A stretch of 64,000 nucleotides of DNA from Thunnus maccoyii (Eukaryota > Chordata > Actinopteri > Scombriformes > Scombridae), in assembly GCF_910596095.1 (NCBI RefSeq), contig NC_056535.1, positions 8,039,501-8,103,500 of the forward strand. The letters are read 5' to 3'. The position numbers were made by a program, and so were the translations under genes. Of this stretch, positions 36,170 through 51,199 are shown one piece after another (the stretch's first letter is position 1; each line of letters begins with the position of its first letter). Below the pieces are notes generated by a model. The model saw only the letters and a program-made list of their open reading frames with translations, searched no databases and had not been told where the DNA came from.

Positions 36170-39010
36170 TATATGATGTTTCAGCCATCGGGCCTTCCTC
36201 AAGATCAACAATAATAGTAGGAAACAGGCACTGGCATGTTATGTAGGCCACACCCTTGTAACACAACTGATGGTTATAGACAATCCTGTTCCATCATTAG
36301 GGGGAGAAAAATAATCTAGAGGCCTTCAATGAATCAAAACTCTTAACAGACAGTGACAGGAACTACAGCCAATCAAATCCCTTTAAACAAAGTGACAAGA
36401 ACCATTTTGTCTCATACCACATATAGAGATTTAAATGTTACATTACAATTCTTTGGTTAAGTACTGTATATTCAAAATGTTAAAAAATACATTTATTTTA
36501 AATCAATTTCCAATAGATATACAGAAAAAGTTAAACCTGAGCTCTAGATGAACATCATAAACAACTTAATCTAAATATCCAATGAGTAGAGGTACATTAC
36601 AGAAAACCCTTCAAGTCATAATCTATATTCAATCCATGAGGTGACAGGGAACAGTGGATCCAATACACAGATCCAATACACAGAACAGTGGATCTCAAAC
36701 AGTGGATCCAATAGTGTGCCCTCCTCAAAAATAAAACATTCACCTTACCTCCTCTTGGGGGGGAGGGATACCTTCTCAATACCAATATATTTTAGAGGAG
36801 AAATAGGATGATTAATGATGATTAGTTCTGTTTTTGCATCTAATATTGCTTCTGTGCTCAGCAATGCAAGTTTTTAGTGCTCTATTCGTCTTTCCAACAT
36901 ATGACTTACCCCAAGGGCAAGTGATAAGATAAATGACTGACTTAATGTGATATGAAATAAATCCTTTTACAGGGATCTCTTTACCTGTGTGAGGATGTTT
37001 AAAACTGTTACGACGGTAAGTATACTTACACTGACTACAACAACACAGTGGCGCTTGCCCTCACGGATAGGTGCTAAAGTAGCTTGGGCTGGTATTGATT
37101 GAGGATGAGCTAAATATGTGTGTACCAGGTGGTCTCTCGGGTTTTTACCTCTTTTACATACCATGAAAGGTTGTTCTTTGAATATACCATTGAGTTGAGA
37201 CTCAGATTCAAGTGTATGCAAATGTTTTGTTATTATTCCTTTTATCTGTTCTGTACACTTAGAATATTCTGTAGTAAACATTATATGGTCATTTGATTTC
37301 ACTGTAGGTTTATTTTTTAAGAGATCAGACCTAGATCTGTCTTTTACTTTAGTGGCAGCATCATTTAGGACAGATTTATTGTATCCTCTTTGTTGAAAGT
37401 TGTTTTTCATTCATTCCTGTCAATATCATCAGTTTTCTGGCAAAATCTGTAAAACTGACTAAAAGGGAGCCTATTTTTTAATGGTAAGGGATGATCAGAG
37501 TCTGCCCTTAGTAAAGTATTTCTAGCTGTAGGTTTTCCAAACAGATCTGTACACAAGTAATTTTTCTTTGTAATGATCCATAAATCTAAAAAAAACTGAT
37601 GCATTTGTAGTAATAATCTATAGTAAATGACAGAAATTCAGAACATGAGTTGAGATAAGTAGAAAATGACACTTGCTGGGTCTTGGACTCTTTGAACAAA
37701 CAAAACATATCATCCAAATACCTCTTCCATAAAAATATATTCTCCTTGAAGCCATGATTAGAGTGAATAAACATCTCTTCAAACAAGCCCATATACAAGT
37801 TGGAAAATGAGGGTGAGAAGGAACTACCCATAGGTAGGGGTACCTTTGGGTAGTTCCTTCTCACCCTCATTTTCCAACTTATATATGGGCTTGTTTCTGA
37901 ATATAAAAGGTATCTTGGAACATCCAACAGTTGTGTATTGAAATCAACTTGCCAACTCCAAAAGACTTTGAGGGTTCTTTTAGGGACTTCTGATAGAATT
38001 GTGTTTTGAAAGAAAGTATTCCAGGGGCTCAATACCTCCATCATGCAATATGGATGTACAGATAGCATTCTCACCAAGGTCACTACAGTAAAAAAAAAGT
38101 TCCTCCTCATCTAAGAGAGCGTCAGTGGATTCTATAATGCTTACTATGTGTCCTGTGTCCTTTGTAAAGGAAGCAAGGTTCTCAGCTAATGGTTTGATAA
38201 AATAATCTACAAAGGTAGACAAACTAGAGGTGAGAGAGCCAATACTGGCAACAATGGGTCAGCCTGGAGGATGTTCAAGACTTTTATGTATTTCTGGTAA
38301 TGTATAAAAAGTAGGAATGATAGAGTGTTCAACTTTTAGAAAGTCATATTCTTTTCTAGAGATTTCACCATTCTGCAATAGATTATCAGGGGCTTCATGA
38401 ACAATATTTTTAAAAGACTGAGTTGGTTCCCCTGGAAGTTCATTGTAAAAAATCTCATCAGAAAGTTGTCTTAGACATTCATTAACATAGTCAACTTTAT
38501 TCATGACCACAGTAGCATGCCTTTTGTCTGCTTGTTTAATGATAGTTGATTCATCTGAATCCAAGTCCTTAAAGGCAGCCATCTCTTCTCTGGTTAGATT
38601 TTTTTAAGATATATGACTCTATTTATTTTTTTAAAGTCAACCTCTTGTTCCACTAGTCTACAATATGTCTCAATAGAGGTACTATGGTTAGAAGGAGGTA
38701 CAAACACACTTTTGCCTCTAAACATGTAGGCTACTCTTGTTTCCATTAGGTAATGTAGAACTTGGTGGTTTTCTAGTTGCTCTGAGATGGATCCATTTTG
38801 TTTGAAAAATTCCTTTAGACATATGTTTCCGCAAAACTTGAGCAGGTCTACTTTAACATCAAAGTCTTTGACATGGTTAGTAGGCACAAAAGAGAGTCCT
38901 TTGTTTAATACCAGTATTTTCTGGTACCAATATTTTTTAACAGTTGTACAGTACAGTTCAGCACACATGGCAATGCTGCTGCTGTAAAGGAGGCTCATTA
39001 TGAAGTATGG
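36170..39010 (-). mobile_element. Decayed Penelope-like retroelement
   Basis: On the minus strand, broken frames give a Penelope-like reverse transcriptase followed by a GIY-YIG endonuclease. From 5' to 3': IIKQADKRHATVVMNKVDY (near 38540), LPEIHKS (near 38290), FVDYFIKPLAENLASFTKD (near 38200), PMGSSFSPSFSNLYMG and the catalytic YLDD (37830-37710), and near 36950-36880 VIYLITCPWGKSYVGKT, the GIY-YIG core. The end of the protein (SLPPKRR, YWIHCL, SLSPHGLN) runs to 36597 and an untranslated tail follows to about 36170. Frameshifts, a small tandem duplication at 36655-36715 and an inverted duplication at 37783-37894 make it non-functional. It fills part of the LWS-SWS2 interval. Confidence 0.75.
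37783..37894. repeat. 48-bp inverted duplication inside the Penelope-like element
   Basis: Arms 37783-37830 and 37847-37894 are reverse complements with one mismatch (ataca/atata), separated by 16 bp. The left arm is genuine reverse transcriptase sequence (encoding FSPSFSNLYMGL on the minus strand). The right arm is an inverted copy that replaces the residues normally preceding PMGSS. The reading frame happens to stay open across it. Confidence 0.9.
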
Positions 39011-40844: not shown

Positions 40845-43681
40845 CTAAGCAGGTCCAACTTTGGAGACTTCAGTCACTGATTGACTTGTTGATGACTCCT
40901 CATCATCTCCTCCACTCATCCCCAGCATCTTCCGTATACATGAGCGGAACTGAAAGGGAGAAACAACATGAGCACATTTGTTTGCTGTACTTTCTGCATG
41001 TAATTTAATAGCAGCATACATAGTGAAACATGCTGTAACAATATCACTATGACTTTGATTTCTTTGTTGACATAATCCAAAGAATAAAGAATTTAAAATC
41101 TGAGTTTTTAATCAAAGGTGGGTCAAGCCTTTTGTATGCTTTGAAAGTGACCAACAGAGGGCTCTACTGGCCCTGTTACTTTATGTTTGTCAATCAAACA
41201 TTCAGTTCAGCTGAATGAATGCAAAGCTAACCTCATGCCAAGAAATAACAGCTAAATCAGAGTAAACACTTCTGTCTGTGACAATGAACCAACCTGTTTA
41301 TTGAGGAGGATGTAGATGACAGGGTTGTAGACTGTGGAGGCTTTAGAGAGGCAGGAGGGTATGGTCGCCAGTCTCAGGTCAAACGGTTGCCCTCGGTTGT
41401 TGACAACCCAAAGAGCAAAGGAGGCGTAAGGCATCCAGCACACCAGGAAGCCCAGCACCATGACGACCACCATCCTGGTCACCTCCCTCTCTGCTTTCTG
41501 GGTGGAGGCTGACTCAGCCTGGGCCTTCGCTGCCTGTGGAGGGACAGGAGAGGTAGAAAGTCTAGTTTTTTGGGGTTTTTTCAAAAGTACATGCATATAT
41601 AACATTAGATAACCTGAGATATATTGCCTACCGATTTCAGCATGATAAGCAGCTGTGAGTAGCAGAAGACGATGGTAGCGAAAGGGACAGCAAAGCAGAA
41701 GCAGAAGAGGAACATTACATAGGACTCATTGTTAAACTTGTTGTCTGTTGTGTACCAGTCCGGTCCACAGGAGCACTGCATGCCCTCTGGGATATACCTG
41801 GAGAGACAGACAATGAATCAGTATGTGTGTGTACTGTAGGTGCCTGTGCAATCGTTACTCAATTGTGTATAGTCATGTGTCTGCTCTATAATACTGACCT
41901 ACTCCATCCAACCAGAGGAGGAACTGCAGCAAACAAAGCAAAGACCCAAGTCATTGCGCAGCAAGCGATAGCATGGTGAGACTTGAAGGCAAAGTTCCCG
42001 AGTGGCTTGCAGACAACCAGCCACCTTTCAAAAGCAACCACAGCAAGAGACCACAGGCTCACCATACCTAAAACAAGAGAGAAAAGAATTCAACTTAGAC
42101 TGATTAGAGTTCCCCCACTGAGCTGCAACTTATATTATTGTGTTTTTGTAAAACTGGGGTTTAAATATAGCAGCCTGCAGTGCATGCCAATCTTTTTTTC
42201 TTTTGTATTTGTCCCAGATGTATACTTAACCTGTAGTGTCTTTAATGACATAATAAAATTTGCTGGCTTATTTTCAATGAATAAATAAATAGGCTGCACT
42301 GGCATTAAGACAGTTTAAAAGTGTTAAGTGACATTAATATTAATTAATATCATGGAATAAAAAAACATGATAAATGTATTTATCTCAAAGGAAGCATATA
42401 AAAATGAGACTTTTATTTCTGGTGACATCCATAATAAATAATAAAGGATCTGATGCCCATCAGGTTTGGTTTTAGACAAGTTTAGGCAGGAATAGTGTGA
42501 AGTCTTTTACCCAAGGATTTTAGAATAGTCCTCATAAACAGCTGAAGGGTCAACAATTAGACATGAAACAGGCAAAGTTTGCTCATCTTTAAAATTGATA
42601 AAAAATAAAATCTATAATTCAGTTCAGAAACCAACAAGAAAATAACGTTGATAGGATTTATTAGCTAAACCAAAAAGATAAAATTATAACTGCATGGGAC
42701 ATTGGCTGTTTACTAGTTATTTAAGTGGGACAAAGTGTAGTTTCTGTGGAAAAGATTTAAAACCACAATAATATTTATTTAATAGACTATCAAAGTTAAA
42801 ATAACATGAATTTAGCCAGTGGAGAGCTGTTCCTTCCAATACCTTTGATATAAGAAAACTAGCACTTTAACACTCTTATCTAGCGTACAATTAAACAGAC
42901 ATGCTGTTATCCGTAACAGATTTTCTTGTCATGGGAAGACATGAAAGCTATGTGTTGTTTTGAAGCTGTTTTGTCTGAGATTAAAATCTTAACAATGAGG
43001 TTAGGAGACTATGTGCTGTGCGAAAACAGATCCCAGTTTAGAAGAGGAGGTGTTAGGGCAGAGAGAGCCAGAGCACAAGTATTTCATTGTATTTCATTGT
43101 ATTTTTAATAAACATGACAATAAAGTTGAACTTTAACTTAATTGCAGTTTTAATACAACACATCACAGTAAATATAAGCATAAAATTTGTGTGTGTAAAA
43201 AGTTTTACCTCTATCATACCATACAGTAGATTACTACCAATAAGTTAGTATTGCATTTTCTCTTTACTTAATAGAATACATGTTAATCCTGATGCTCCTT
43301 ACCACCAAGAGTTGCTGTAAATCCTTCAATCTTGCATCCCAGTGGTCCAAGAATCATGTATCTGAAGGCAAAGCAGTAGAAGCAGGTGAAGGAGCCCACG
43401 GAGGAGACGAGGAGGTTTGCCACAGCCAAGTTCACCAAGATGTAGTTCAGGTGAGATCGGAGCTTCTTATATTGAACAGTACACGCAATAGTGATGACAT
43501 TGATGCCTGTGCCAGCTACAAAAAGAAAGAACATAAAGGCTGACATGGCATAAAAGATCCCCATGCTACCTAGGTGATCCTGGGGAACCAGGAACGGGCT
43601 GAGGGATGTGATATTGTTGGTGTCCAAAGGGATAGGGATCCAGAAGTCCTCTGGCAACTCCACAGGACGATTCCCTCTCAT
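40845..43681 (-). CDS. sws2a: SWS2 (blue) cone opsin, copy nearest LWS
   Basis: A short-wavelength-sensitive type 2 cone pigment (retinal-binding GPCR). Five exons, 5' to 3': 43681-43303, 42067-41899, 41797-41632, 41533-41294, 40949-40845. The sizes 379/169/166/240/105 match the standard non-LWS opsin layout; 352 residues, intact. Counterion Glu119 (KIEGF), retinal lysine 302 (CLSKAS), NPVIY in helix 7, and a Ser/Thr-rich tail ending [11 protein letters not shown]. Tuning sites in bovine numbering: Cys94, Cys97, Thr116, Met122, Ala269, Ser292. The start is the ATG in [15 protein letters not shown], matching the sister gene's start. Intron 1 is 1.2 kb, against 111 bp in the sister gene, and holds a probable retroelement tail. 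Exon 4 is identical to that of the 48-kb copy. By position next to LWS it is probably the percomorph SWS2A-beta; that subtype is inferred. Confidence 0.95.
43040..43140 (+). repeat. Probable LINE 3' tail in SWS2 intron 1
   Basis: The sequence ttcattgtatttttaataaa followed by catgacaataaagttgaact matches the end commonly seen on fish LINE/RTE insertions (TTTCATTGTA..TGACAATAAAGTTGAA). It lies antisense in the expanded first intron of the 41-43 kb SWS2 gene. Only the tail is recognisable. Confidence 0.45.
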
Positions 43682-44744: not shown

Positions 44745-47130
44745 AAGTCAAGTTCATTTATATAGCACATTTAAAAACAACCAAAGAGTTGACCAAAGTG
44801 CTGTACAAATTACAGTGAAAGGCACAACAGTAGAGAATGAAATACAGTGACATCAGTAGTAAAAGGCACAAATAACAACAATGAAAAGCAATGATAAAAT
44901 ACATGGCAATATCAAAATATATGTATAAATGTAAAACAGAGAAGAATAAAAATCATTTATAAATAAGTGAAAGATTGTAAAAATACTAAAATGATTAAGA
45001 GCAACCAAAGGCTATTGAAAACATGTAAGTCTTGAGTTTTGCCTTTAAAGTGTCAATGGAGGGGGAACACTTGATCGAAAACGGGAGACAATTCCAAAGC
45101 TTTGGTGCAGCTACCACAAAGGCATGATCTTCCTTACCCACTAGCCTCGATTGTGGAACAGTTAAAAACAATTGTTCTGAGGATCTAAGAGGCCTAGAGT
45201 TGGAGTAGGGGCAGAGAAGTTCTGAGACGTACAGAGGAGCCAACCTATGTATGACTTTAAAAAAAAAAAATAAAAGAACCTTGAATTCAGTTCTGTATTT
45301 GACAGGTAGCCAGTGCAGGGATACTAGTACTGGTGTAATGCTGTCTCTCTTTCTGGTACCAGTTAGGAGTGTCACTGCAGTGTTCTGCACCAGCTGCAGG
45401 CGAGACAAAAATGACTGGCCAACACCCAGGTGCAGTGAGTTACAGTAGTCCAGCCATGAGGAAGTAACGCAGTGGGAATGGTCTTCATGTCGTTGAAAGA
45501 TAGGATGGACTTTAGCTTGGCAATGTTCCCCAGCTGAAAGTAGCAACCTTTTACTACAGAGTTGATCTGATTATCAAATTTTAATACCAAGTCCAAGATG
45601 ACACAAAGATGTCTGGCATGGGCATGAAGATTCAATGTCAGTGGTCCTAAGTGTCTTACTATATCCCCTGTGGTGTTGGGGGGACCAAAAACAATCACTT
45701 CTGTCTTGCTATCATTTAACTGGAGACGTTTTTTTTGCCATCCAGCATTTCATATCCTGGAGGCAATTGTGGATGGATATAACAGAGCTGGCATACCTTA
45801 TATTTAATGGAAGGTATATTTAAGTGTTATTGATGTGACAGTGAAAGGGGACATTGTGATTGCAGAAGCCTAAAGGGAGCATATGGAAAGCAAACAAAAT
45901 GGGCCCTAAAATGGAACCTTGAGGTAGTCTAAAAGTGATTGGGGCAGTAGAGGAGGAGAGGCCCCCAATCTTAACAGAAAAAGTCCTGTATATTAAGTAG
46001 GAGGCAAACCACAGGATGGCAGGGCCGTGGATGCCAATCTGGTCCTCGAGACGGTTTAATAGAATATAATGATCAACCGTATCAAAAGCCGTGCTAAGGT
46101 TTAAAAGAATTAAAATGGCACATTTACCACAGTCTAAAGATAACAGTGAGTCATCTGAGACTCTGAGAAGAGCAGATTCTGTGTTGTGACAAGCCCTGAA
46201 GTTTGATTTTCTCCATGATGTTGTTTTTGTCTAAAAAAGACAGAAGCTGTGTGTAGACAATTTTCTCCAGTACTTTGGACAAAAATGGGAGCTTGGAGAT
46301 GGGACAGAAATGCTTTAGTTCTGAATTGTTAAGGTTAGGCTTTTTAATAAGGGGTTGAATTATTGCAAAGCAGAACAGGACCATTCCATTTGCAAGACTG
46401 CTATTTATAATAAGAGAAATTGTGGGACCTACAGTGTCCAATATTTCCTTTAAAAATATGTAGGAACAATCTCCAGGGGGCAGGTGGTGGACTTGTGTTA
46501 GAGACTGCAAGCAGACACCAGAAAGAGATCATAGGCAGGTCGTATGTGATCAATTTTTGTTGAGAAAAAGTTTAAAAAGTCATCACAAATGGCTGTGGTC
46601 AGCACAGGACAGGTAGTAGCGACAGGGTTGAGGACTGAATTAATTGTGTGGAATAGAACTTTGGGACTGTGGGAATTTCTGGAGATAATGATGGCAAAAT
46701 ATTTTGCTATTGCAGCTTTGACAGATTGCTGATAATTTGCCAGACAACCTTTCAGTATCTCAAATGAAACATGAAGCCTATCTCTTTTGCATCTACAATC
46801 TGCCTTTCTACAAAGTTGCCTGAGAGCACTGCTGTTATTGTTCAACTGAGTTTTGGCTCTGGGTTTTCTGACTTTCAAAGGGGCAACAGAGTCCAAGATG
46901 TCTCCACAGATTGAATTAAACTTTGTGATCAGTTGGTGTGTGTTTAGCTGAAGGGGTTGGGCCTTAATACTGCTGAATAGAGAGGAGGCTATGTAGGCAT
47001 CTGAGAAATTACTGGTTGTAGATGGCTTTAAAACATGTCTGAAAGGGACCTTTAAAATGTGCGTAATGTGACTGTCTGACATGGTGAAAGTAGAACAAAA
47101 AGGTTTACAGTATATCCCAGAAATCAAATA
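44745..47130 (-). mobile_element. Dead L2-clade LINE between the two SWS2 genes
   Basis: Minus-strand broken frames run in LINE order: KVRKPRAKTQ (near 46860), the KIDHIRP block (near 46550), ILDTVGPTISLIINSSLA (46440), PISKLPFLSKVLEKIVYTQL (46290), NLSTAFDTVDH (reverse transcriptase motif A, near 46090), GPLTLNLHAHARHLCVILD (45630), then LDYCNSLHLG, TPVLVSLHWLPVKYRTEFK and APKLWNCLPFSIK to about 44995. The 3' UTR ends near 44745 with the GCTATATAAATGAACTTGAC type tail of L2/Maui elements. The 5' endonuclease part is missing (5'-truncated) and frames are interrupted, so it is inactive. It makes up most of the spacer between the opsin paralogues. Confidence 0.8.
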
Positions 47131-47500
47131 ATGTAATGAAGAAACATCTTAAGGAACACTCTTTATGCTTCCTATATACTTACAAAATATGCTGGCAGTG
47201 TTTGCAAAGACCCATTAACTTAGATATTATCTTATCTTGATTAGAATCAGTGGATTGTTTTTCTTTTTGTAGTTTAAAACACTGACTGTAAACTGCAAAC
47301 CAGCTTGTGTAATGGCCCCTTAGTGTTGCAGTGAATCTATGCCTCACAACACAATACCTATGTAAGGAACTATGTCCAAACCAGTGAATGTGTTCTTTTC
47401 CAGTATTGACAATACACAGATACCTTTTACATTTTTCATGTTGCAGAATGATTATTCACTATGTCTTATTTGAATTGCAAATTTATTTGAATTGCAACAT

Positions 47501-47577
<77 letters not shown>

Positions 47578-47664
47578 CTGATATGATAAAATACATACAT
47601 TTATAGTTATTTACAATTGACAACTAGTTAACGACAGAGGAATCAAGAAGTGTTGATGCGCAGT
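47131..47664. other. SWS2 (47.7 kb copy) 3' flank with TA array
   Basis: AT-rich 3' flank of the minus-strand SWS2 gene. Apart from the TA microsatellite at 47503-47575, nothing is recognised. Confidence 0.5.
47503..47575. repeat. (TA)n microsatellite
   Basis: About 70 bp of uninterrupted TA dinucleotides, roughly 90 bp past the stop codon of the SWS2 gene. Such long TA arrays are unstable and hard to assemble, so the length is provisional. Confidence 0.97.
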
Positions 47665-49821
47665 CTAGGCAGGCCCAACTTTGGAGACTTCAGTCACTGA
47701 TTGTGTTGTTGACGTTTCTTCCTCTCCTCCACCCATCCCCAGCATTGTCATCATGCATGAACGGAACTGAAAGAGGACAACCAATAACTGAAATAGTTCA
47801 AATTTACATTGATTCTATGGACAATGTGATGTTGTCTGTATCAATCATCCCAACAACATCTTCATCATCAGACATGAGCAGAACTGAGAAAGAATCCCTT
47901 TGTACTGTAACATTAAAGCCACTGTGTATAGAATTAGAAAATCTCCAACTTTGGTGCTCTTAGTGGAAGCATCAAAAAAGACACTGTAGCTGGCACTCTG
48001 CACCAGTTTTCACTGGCATTGTCTAATTTTTCTACAAAAAGAAACAAATTCAACCAGAAAAGATTTTCTAATCACATAATAACATAATGACTTTAATATA
48101 GTGATTCACAGAGCCAGCAAAGTGATTGAATGACTGGTATATCACAACACTGAACAGACCTGTTTATTGAAGACAACATAAATTACAGGGTAGTAGACTG
48201 CAGAGCCCTTTGAAAGGCAGAAGGGTATGGTCGCCATTCTCAGGTCAAAGGTCAAAGGAAATAGCTTCTAAATCAGAGTAAATACCTCTGTCCATGACAA
48301 TGAACCAACCTGTTTATTGAGGAGGATGTAGATGACAGGGTTGTAGACTGTGGAGGCTTTAGAGAGGCAGGAGGGTATGGTCGCCAGTCTCAGGTCAAAC
48401 GGTTGCCCTCGGTTGTTGACAACCCAAAGAGCAAAGGAGGCGTAAGGCATCCAGCACACCAGGAAGCCCAGCACCATGACGACCACCATCCTGGTCACCT
48501 CCCTCTCTGCTTTCTGGGTGGAGGCTGACTCAGCCTGGGCCTTCGCTGCCTGTGGAGGGAGAGAAGAGATGTGTGTCATGATGAGCAGGATTTTAGTATA
48601 TTTAAAGACTCATTAGTTTTTACCAAGCCATTGGACATGATAATTGATTGTAGGGATTGTATGTGTACAGAGCAAAAAAAAAATAGCAAAGGGTCAACTT
48701 GTTTTCATATACTTTTATATTTAACTTTTTTGTTAAGTCGGTTTGTATGATAGATTTGTCATGATACACTGATTTTAGCTCTGATATGCATTCAAGTAGA
48801 AATCTTGTTCAATCTAGAGAGGACAATTGTAGTGTCACAAGCATGTTTAATGTTTAAGTCTTATTTTGTGATGCTTTTCCTCACAATTTTCAGTGTAATG
48901 AGCAGCTGGGAATAGCAGAAGACAATGGTGGCAAAGGGAACAGCAAAGCAAAATCCAAAAAGGAACATCACGTAGGATTCGTTGTTGTATTTGTTGTTTG
49001 TGGTGTACCAGTCTGGACCGCAGGAGCACTGCAGGCCTTCTGGGATATACCTGGAAAGACAGACAATCCTTAATACTGTAAATTTAGCATCTGTCCCTAC
49101 AAAAATTAATTGCTTTGCAAGGGGAAAGAATGTTAATGTGAGAGTCAGTGTGTAATACTGACCTGCTCCATCCAAACAGTGGGGGAACTGAGGCAATCAG
49201 TGCAAACACCCAAGTGAACGCACAGCAAGCTAAAGCGTGGTCAGGCTTGAAAACAAAGTTTCCCAGTGGCTTGCAGATGACCAGCCATCTTTCAAAAGCA
49301 ACCACAGCAAGAGACCACAGGCTCACCATACCTGGAACGACACAGGCATTTTAAACCCTTTTTCAAATCATTCCATACTTTAGAGCCACACTGTATTCAT
49401 AAAAGAGTATGTATCATTTCTTAACTACAGGTTACATCTTACCACCAAGTGTAGCCAAAAAACCTTCAATCTTGCATCCCAGTGGTCCAAAGATGAAATA
49501 TCTTACTGCAAAGGAGCAGCAAGCAGTAAAGGAACCCACACCGGACACAAGAAGGTTTGCCATGGCCAAGTTCACAAGGATGTAGTTGAGGTGAGACCGA
49601 AGCTTCTTGTATTGGATGGTGCATGCAATGGTGAGGATGTTGATGGCAGTGCCAACCACAAATATGAAGAACATGAATCCTGCCATGCTATAGAAGGTGC
49701 CCGTGCCCCCTAAGTGGTCCTGAGGAACCAGGAAGGGGCTGAGTGATGTGATGTTGTTGGTGTCCAGAGCGACAGGTATCCAGAAGTCTTCTGGCAGTTC
49801 CGTACCACGATTTACCCTCAT
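47665..49821 (-). CDS. sws2a: SWS2 (blue) cone opsin, middle copy
   Basis: A second intact SWS2 cone pigment. Five exons, 5' to 3': 49821-49443, 49331-49163, 49050-48885, 48549-48310, 47766-47665; sizes 379/169/166/240/102; 351 residues. Glu119 counterion (KIEGF), lysine 302, NPVIY and the tail [11 protein letters not shown] are all present. Tuning sites in bovine numbering: Ala94, Ser97, Leu116, Met122, Ala269, Ser292. It therefore differs from the copy nearer LWS at 94, 97 and 116 but not in exon 4. Exon 4 is identical to the other gene's over all 240 bp, and a truncated second exon 4 remains in intron 4 (48161-48250). Exons 1-3 and 5 are clearly diverged between the genes, except for the first 40-50 bases of exon 2. 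By order it is probably percomorph SWS2A-alpha (inferred). Confidence 0.95.
48161..48253 (-). pseudogene. Relic 3' part of SWS2 exon 4 inside intron 4
   Basis: Minus strand, about 90 bp. It aligns codon for codon with the last 30 codons of exon 4, reading [20 protein letters not shown] and on to the NKQ end. The retinal lysine is kept (CLSKGS) and the splice donor CAG|GT is intact. It differs from the functional exon at about 16 of 87 bases, similar to the divergence of the genes' other exons. It lacks the first two-thirds of the exon and any strong acceptor. It has lost Asn of NPxIY (YPVIY) and has Phe at site 292. The break falls in a doubled ggtcaaa word at 48244-48257. It is best read as the gene's original exon 4, displaced by a copied one. 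Confidence 0.9.
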
Positions 49822-50014
49822 TTTGCTCTATTTATATTATTATTGATCAAAAACTACTGTTACACCTGACAAGTGATTTCCTCGGGTACGTTGATACACA
49901 ACCTACGTGTCCCATATACCATATAATGAAAATAAAGAATAAAAGTTTTAAGAACCAGACTTGAATGCTGCAATGTCAGTGTACCTAATGTCTTCCTCAG
50001 TTTCTTGTGGGACA

Positions 50015-50984: not shown

Positions 50985-51154
50985 TGCAAAATGTGTAGTT
51001 GAGGTGGGACCAGAGCTTCTTGTGTTGGACAATGCATGTGATTGAATCATATTGACGGCAGTACCCACAGTAAATATAAAAAACAGGGGCTGACAGACGT
51101 GATGTTGTCTGTATCCAGACTGATGGGGATCCAGAAATCCTCCAGAAGCTCCAT
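50985..51154 (-). pseudogene. SWS2 pseudogene, exon 1 fragment
   Basis: On the minus strand it begins MELLEDFWIPISLDTDNITS, matching the SWS2 N-terminus (ELPEDFWIP.[11 protein letters not shown]). About 22 codons are then missing, and it resumes with FFIFTVGTAVN. After a frameshift it continues CIVQHKKLWSHLNYTF, matching the helix 1-2 region. Everything after that is gone, including exons 2-5. A TATAAAT box (51199-51193) survives about 40 bp upstream. Its place beyond the two SWS2A genes and nearest hcfc1 fits a lost SWS2B; the subtype is inferred from position because too little sequence remains. Confidence 0.85.
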
Positions 51155-51199
51155 AACATCTGTGACAATCCATTACAGAAGACTGGGAGTAAATTTATA

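Follow-up and report, generated by a model that had tools for sequence, protein, structure and literature searches.

The window analysed here is a stretch of 64,000 nucleotides (C3:8039501-8103500 of a 782-Mb assembly in 54 contigs), which carries two intact SWS2 opsin genes, each composed of five exons and both encoded on the minus strand (49821-47665 and 43681-40845). Intron 4 of the first of these genes contains several pieces of opsin sequence lying on the same strand as their host. In the direction of transcription the tail of an exon 4 comes first, followed by the head of an exon 5 and then by a piece of an exon 1, which is the order of the gene array (Table 1).

Table 1. Features of the two SWS2 genes and of the relics within intron 4 of the host gene
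Feature	Position	Strand	Remarks
Broken SWS2 exon 1 (pseudogene)	50995..51158	-	closest relative to the piece at 47820-47842
Host gene (SWS2A) exon 1	49443..49821	-	translation gives A94/S97
Host gene exon 2	49163..49331	-	
Host gene exon 3	48885..49050	-	
Host gene functional exon 4	48310..48549	-	no difference from SWS2B 41294-41533
First 53 bp of intron 4	48257..48309	-	common to the SWS2B gene at 85% (8/53 mismatches)
Extra TTTGACC unit at the junction	48250..48256	-	7-bp direct repeat with the start of the relic
Relic exon 4 tail	48160..48249	-	30 codons without a stop; Asn of NPxxY replaced by Tyr
Relic donor site	48154..48159	-	GTCTGT behind CAG; scores 5.65 versus 6.07 for the functional donor
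Relic intron 4	47884..48159	-	276 bp
Interspersed repeat in the relic intron	47912..48083		edges approximate; parts at 28 other places in the genome
Relic exon 5 head	47843..47883	-	12 residues, then a stop; AG acceptor in register
Exon-1-like piece	47820..47842	-	23 bp; 17-bp word whose only other copy is in the pseudogene exon 1 (51 kb)
Host gene functional exon 5	47665..47766	-	
SWS2B gene (five exons)	40845..43681	-	C94/C97; exon 4 exchange partner; no relic detected in intron 4

HCFC1, GNL3L, TFE3 and LWS were named in the window from their translated frames. As to the SWS2 genes, translation places A94/S97 at the tuning sites of the 49821-47665 gene and C94/C97 at those of the 43681-40845 gene, the sites being numbered after bovine rhodopsin. 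An excerpt of a published account describes C94/C97 as the reported state of SWS2B and A94/S97 as the predicted ancestral state, and gives the percomorph gene order as HCFC1 - SWS2A-beta - SWS2A-alpha - SWS2B - LWS - GNL3L - TFE3 (PMC5686071). On the basis of the tuning residues and the gene order, the host of the relics is therefore taken as SWS2A and its neighbour at 41 kb as SWS2B. The order found in the window fits the percomorph SWS2A-beta/SWS2A-alpha/SWS2B array, with a broken exon 1 at the place expected for SWS2A-beta; it differs in that a single SWS2A is intact, and this gene bears gene fragments in its intron 4.

The exon 1 pseudogene at 51 kb is perhaps a remnant of a lost SWS2A-beta. 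A search of the window revealed no convincing exons 2-5 behind it, and a search of the genome, which returned two exon 4s plus the relic and two intact exon 1s, revealed no intact third SWS2 gene. None of the 29 sequences listed in a search of solved structures with exon 1 was named SWS2, and Rfam gave no match within 47600-49900. Two broken elements also reside in the cluster. A retrotransposon (44995-47148, minus strand) separates SWS2B from SWS2A; five of its frames were searched, and one gave a reverse transcriptase match (PF00078, E 2e-8). The other, a reverse-transcriptase element (36812-38603, minus strand) that we presume to be Penelope-like, lies between LWS and SWS2B; its match to PF00078 (E 8e-5, one of three frames searched) is under the family cut-off. 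Elsewhere, at C3:18841400-18884342, there is an array of five opsin genes, which we take to be RH2-like by similarity; it also includes a sixth match to exon 4, which is partial and contains a TGA (18868048-18868221).

The relic exon 4 tail (48160-48249, minus strand), which an earlier note had described from the letters of this stretch, is real. Its 30 codons contain neither a stop nor an indel, the CAG/GT donor is retained, and so is the lysine at codon 14, which we take to be the retinal-binding one. The tail differs from that of the functional exon 4 at 16 of 90 bases (17.8%), eight of the changes being synonymous and eight not (dS 0.51, dN 0.127). This agrees with the claim, made in the same note, that the divergence of about 18% is like that of the other exons, for which comparison of SWS2A with SWS2B gave dS 0.57 and dN 0.09 in exon 2, and dS 0.52 and dN 0.12 in exon 5. 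The dN/dS of the relic (about 0.25) shows that most of this divergence accrued under constraint, and it is equally compatible with a resident exon.

As a query against the window, the relic matched exon 4 of both SWS2 genes (81.6% identity over 103 bp, E ~1e-22). A DNA search of the 782-Mb assembly at E <= 0.001 gave at least three places, namely the relic and the two functional exons. Within the SWS2B gene at 41 kb the query found just the functional exon 4, a further match of 27 bp near that gene being at chance level (E 1.8), so that no such relic was detected in it. In a tree of 13 exon 4 tails from the same genome (90 bp), the relic and the functional exon were paired with 100/100 support; for this tree, L015 and L016 were left out as duplicates of the functional exon and L028-L030 as distant. 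The relic is identical to the functional exon at 74 of 90 positions, versus 44-57 for 14 other tails. It thus clusters with SWS2 exon 4 and not with other opsins.

With LWS as the lone outgroup, seven of the differences are derived in the relic, four are derived in the functional exon and five cannot be polarised. Since LWS alone was indecisive, other opsins of the same genome were taken as outgroups, and we used nine (L017-L025) of the 14 non-SWS2 tails read. At two of the 16 differing sites the relic retains the state of all nine outgroup tails, the functional exon being derived; at three sites the reverse holds, and 11 were not polarised. Because it is ancestral at two sites, the relic does not stem from recent copying of today's exon 4, and in this respect too the earlier reading of it as old was right. 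The three sites at which the relic is derived include the Asn of what we take to be the NPxxY motif: the relic has YPVIY, and Asn is found in all 14 other opsin tails. Loss of this residue fits what is expected of a dead exon. On this comparison the relic is a separate, old SWS2 lineage that was long constrained before being released.

The exon 4 tail does not stand alone. The earlier note omitted three further components of intron 4: the relic of exon 5 (47843-47883), the exon-1-like piece (47820-47842) and a repeat (approximately 47912-48083). The exon-5 relic reads TTTCTCAG followed by TTCTGCTCATGTCTGATGATGAAGATG, the acceptor/exon boundary lying between the two, and ends in a stop; its acceptor is in register with exon 5 of both SWS2B and SWS2A. 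When exon 5 of SWS2B was used as a query, the relic gave a local score of 21.5 versus 9.9 +/- 1.5 for shuffled sequences, none of 2000 shuffles reaching it, and a single window tile of 681, the one containing the last exon of LWS, scored as high. The corresponding score with SWS2A exon 5 was 18.5, which was reached by none of 2000 shuffles (maximum 17.0) and by none of 681 tiles (both tile counts exclude the regions of the two functional exon 5s). In the opposite direction, with the exon-5 relic as the query, the exon 5s of both genes ranked first (E 5.75e-4 and 0.004). The intron therefore holds not only the end of an exon 4 but, in the correct order and on the same strand, the next exon with its acceptor.

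The exon-1-like piece alone gave a match of E 0.03 only in a search of the window. Its 17-mer at 47826-47842 occurs in exactly two copies in 782 Mb, the other being at 51099-51115, within the broken exon 1; both are on the minus strand of the opsin cluster, and the reversed control sequence gave 0 copies. The repeat in the relic intron is roughly 170 bp long, carries ATTAGAAAATCT-like words in inverted orientation, one at 47933 and the other at 48059, and has parts matched at 28 other places with 73-93% identity. Once this element is subtracted, the relic intron measures roughly 100-106 bp. SWS2A intron 4 minus all of the pieces and the 7-bp repeat amounts to 53 + 53 = 106 bp, and introns 2 and 3 of SWS2B and 1 and 2 of SWS2A are 98-112 bp long. 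The remaining three introns are of 335 bp (SWS2A intron 3), 344 bp (SWS2B intron 4) and 1235 bp; the agreement in size is therefore just a hint, and the two former values mean that an ancestral intron 4 of 106 bp is not assured.

A second feature of the locus concerns the functional exon 4. Between SWS2A and SWS2B this exon shows no difference in 240 positions (0 of 58.7 synonymous sites), and the identical run extends over 266 bp, that is, exon 4 plus 11 and 15 bp around it. Exons 1-3 together give dS 1.02 and dN 0.11. Synonymous divergence of exon 4 is thus far under that of the rest of the gene pair, and the contrast with a dS of about 1.0 in exons 1-3 leads us to conclude, in line with the earlier note, that exon 4 was copied between the genes. 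The piece of shared intron of about 50 bp to which that note referred was also found; it comprises the 53 bp behind the exon and is 85% alike, the other three 3' exon flanks being 26-42% alike over 53 bp and the 5' flanks of exons 2-5 36-60% alike over 50 bp (the highest value being that of exon 3). The flank and the exon are nevertheless unequal in divergence (8/53 versus 0/240 mismatches, Fisher P = 7e-7; P = 0.0019 against about 59 synonymous sites). This requires at least two exchanges, unless mutation or constraint differs greatly between the two stretches. A further round of homogenisation of exon 4, later than the last sharing of the flank, is therefore probable, though less so if mutation is uneven or synonymous sites are strongly constrained.

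These observations bear directly on the model put forward in the earlier note, according to which a single tract from SWS2B, comprising exon 4 and some 53 bp of intron, came to its end within the resident SWS2A exon 4 through microhomology, leaving a 30-codon stump. Several observations speak for this model: the relic lies outside the converted block, is SWS2 in kind and is as divergent as other SWS2A/SWS2B exons, the shared piece of intron reaches right to it, and the join is marked by a small repeat (the ggtcaaa word, TTTGACC on the coding strand). A single event is hardly enough, however, to account for an exon with 0/240 and a flank with 8/53 mismatches, and on this point (P = 0.0019) the proposed single import tract is not supported. 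Nor does the model explain the exon-5 relic and the exon-1 piece; a lone resident stump does not predict them, because the resident exon 5 should be the working one. The idea is thus supported in part, as regards a copied exon 4 and an old SWS2 relic. We therefore consider the model in its original form to be rather improbable.

The exon-5 relic could be reconciled with a resident origin if replacement had occurred on two sides. Donor pieces would have replaced the first two thirds of the resident exon 4 and the end of the resident exon 5, with the replacing ends out of register, and a resident island, beginning midway through exon 4 and ending midway through exon 5, would have come to lie within the new intron 4. 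The relics of exons 4 and 5 do follow each other in the expected sequence, the intron that separates them is of ordinary size when the repeat is disregarded, and the 53 bp ahead of the functional exon 5, acceptor tract included, are slightly alike in SWS2A and SWS2B (11 of 500 shuffles as high). This slight likeness may be that of the acceptor tract itself. The 50 bp ahead of exon 5 are 46% alike, the 200 bp past the stop codons show no likeness between the genes (436 of 500 shuffles as high), and exon 5 has a dS of 0.52, so that the functional exon 5 bears no sign of recent exchange. The exon-1 piece also stays unexplained. Replacement on two sides is, in our judgement, unlikely.

A third gene would be unnecessary if part of SWS2A had been tandemly duplicated within the gene and the full copy then converted from SWS2B, and conversion would naturally halt where homology halts. 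In its simple form such a duplication puts the head of exon 5 ahead of the tail of exon 4, whereas here exon 4 is followed by the exon 4 tail, then by the exon 5 head and last by exon 5; extra deletions are thus required, and we regard such an origin as distinctly improbable. An assembly artefact, in which mis-joined reads gave rise to the identity of the exon 4s or to the extra pieces, is scarcely credible in an assembly of 782 Mb in 54 contigs, since a mis-join would not create a relic with 18% divergence or an intron bearing a repeat.

The explanation that we favour, as a probable though far from certain one, is that SWS2A intron 4 harbours a dead fragment from the 3' part of a further SWS2 copy, which was captured or left by collapse, and that ordinary gene conversion acted over exon 4. 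All of the pieces would be accounted for in this way, because a fragment of this kind could bring together a 30-codon exon 4 end, a short intron 4, some 40 bp from the start of exon 5 and a 23-bp piece of exon 1. It may have been lodged in the intron by an old non-allelic rearrangement within the tandem SWS2 array, either by capture at a break in an intron 4 of ~106 bp or by a deletion that collapsed neighbouring copies, and the repeat element would have invaded its short intron 4 later. Since no intact third SWS2 gene was found, the source copy is an assumption. Separately, and more than once, gene conversion with SWS2B would have overwritten the functional exon 4 together with the first 53 bp of the intron; under the favoured explanation SWS2B is a candidate donor, and the similarity stops at the start of the fragment, where homology would end. 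The pieces with their order and strand, the identical exon 4s and the two levels of divergence are observations, while the route of rearrangement, the source copy, the direction of conversion and the lack of use are inferred.

Possible uses of the relics in splicing were also considered. The donor sites were scored with a weight matrix, and of the 68 GTs scored in the introns of the gene, five reach 5.65: the four working donors and the relic donor. If exon 4 ran on as far as the relic donor, a stop would be met after 13 codons, 108 nt short of the next junction. Relic exons of 105-108 nt demand an intron of 42-45 bp ahead of them, or the loss of exon 4, and those of 79 or 38 nt shift the frame. 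A mini-exon of 48 nt (48160-48207) is in frame, has an intron of 102 bp and 14/17 pyrimidines ahead of it and would add 16 residues; its use is judged unlikely because the AAAG acceptor is without the usual C and the insert would repeat what is presumably the end of a helix. The acceptor of the exon-5 relic, if used, would give a truncated opsin of 330 residues with a 12-residue tail, and its pyrimidine tract is weaker (9/17 versus 13/17). A coding role of the relic is thus unlikely, judged from its reading frames and splice signals, and the fragment is most likely removed with the intron by splicing.

The history of fish cone opsins is hard to read, since gene conversion erases the sequence that it overwrites. 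Here, next to the converted exon, part of an SWS2 exon 4 and exon 5 has survived unconverted, and the inserted repeat can help in dating. If the fragment is shared by relatives, the rearrangement could be dated, donor and recipient could be separated and the later rewritings of exon 4 could be counted. Should replacement on two sides prove true after all, a single gene would hold a before-and-after record of conversion between paralogues. Opsin relics in introns also carry a risk of being miscalled as exons.

Decayed gene fragments and templated insertions are known at the joins of rearrangements. The locus described here may resemble them in that pieces of nearby paralogues are strung on one strand, although this is a likeness only and does not identify the mechanism. 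In literature searches outside Cortesi et al. 2015, reportedly the main paper on SWS2 conversion, none of the titles and abstract openings listed describes a relic exon beside a converted opsin exon. We consider the locus to be a record of ordinary but untidy swapping and rearrangement between tandem genes. Local conversion with the same signature has been described in tandem cone opsins of anabantoid fishes, in which sliding-window Ks falls to zero between lws paralogues; unlike the case of SWS2A intron 4, relic exons are not mentioned in the excerpt of that account (PMC11291592). Local conversion between SWS2A and SWS2B, including this part of the gene, has been reported as well, and an excerpt of that report places a region of low dS around bp 700-800 and ascribes it to the shorthorn sculpin lineage (PMC5388470). 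Exon 4 of the present genes corresponds to CDS 715-954, and as in that case a short coding stretch is homogenised and the rest diverged. In contrast to what that excerpt describes, the identical block found here coincides with exon 4 plus 11 and 15 bp, and relics of opsin exons directly adjoin it.
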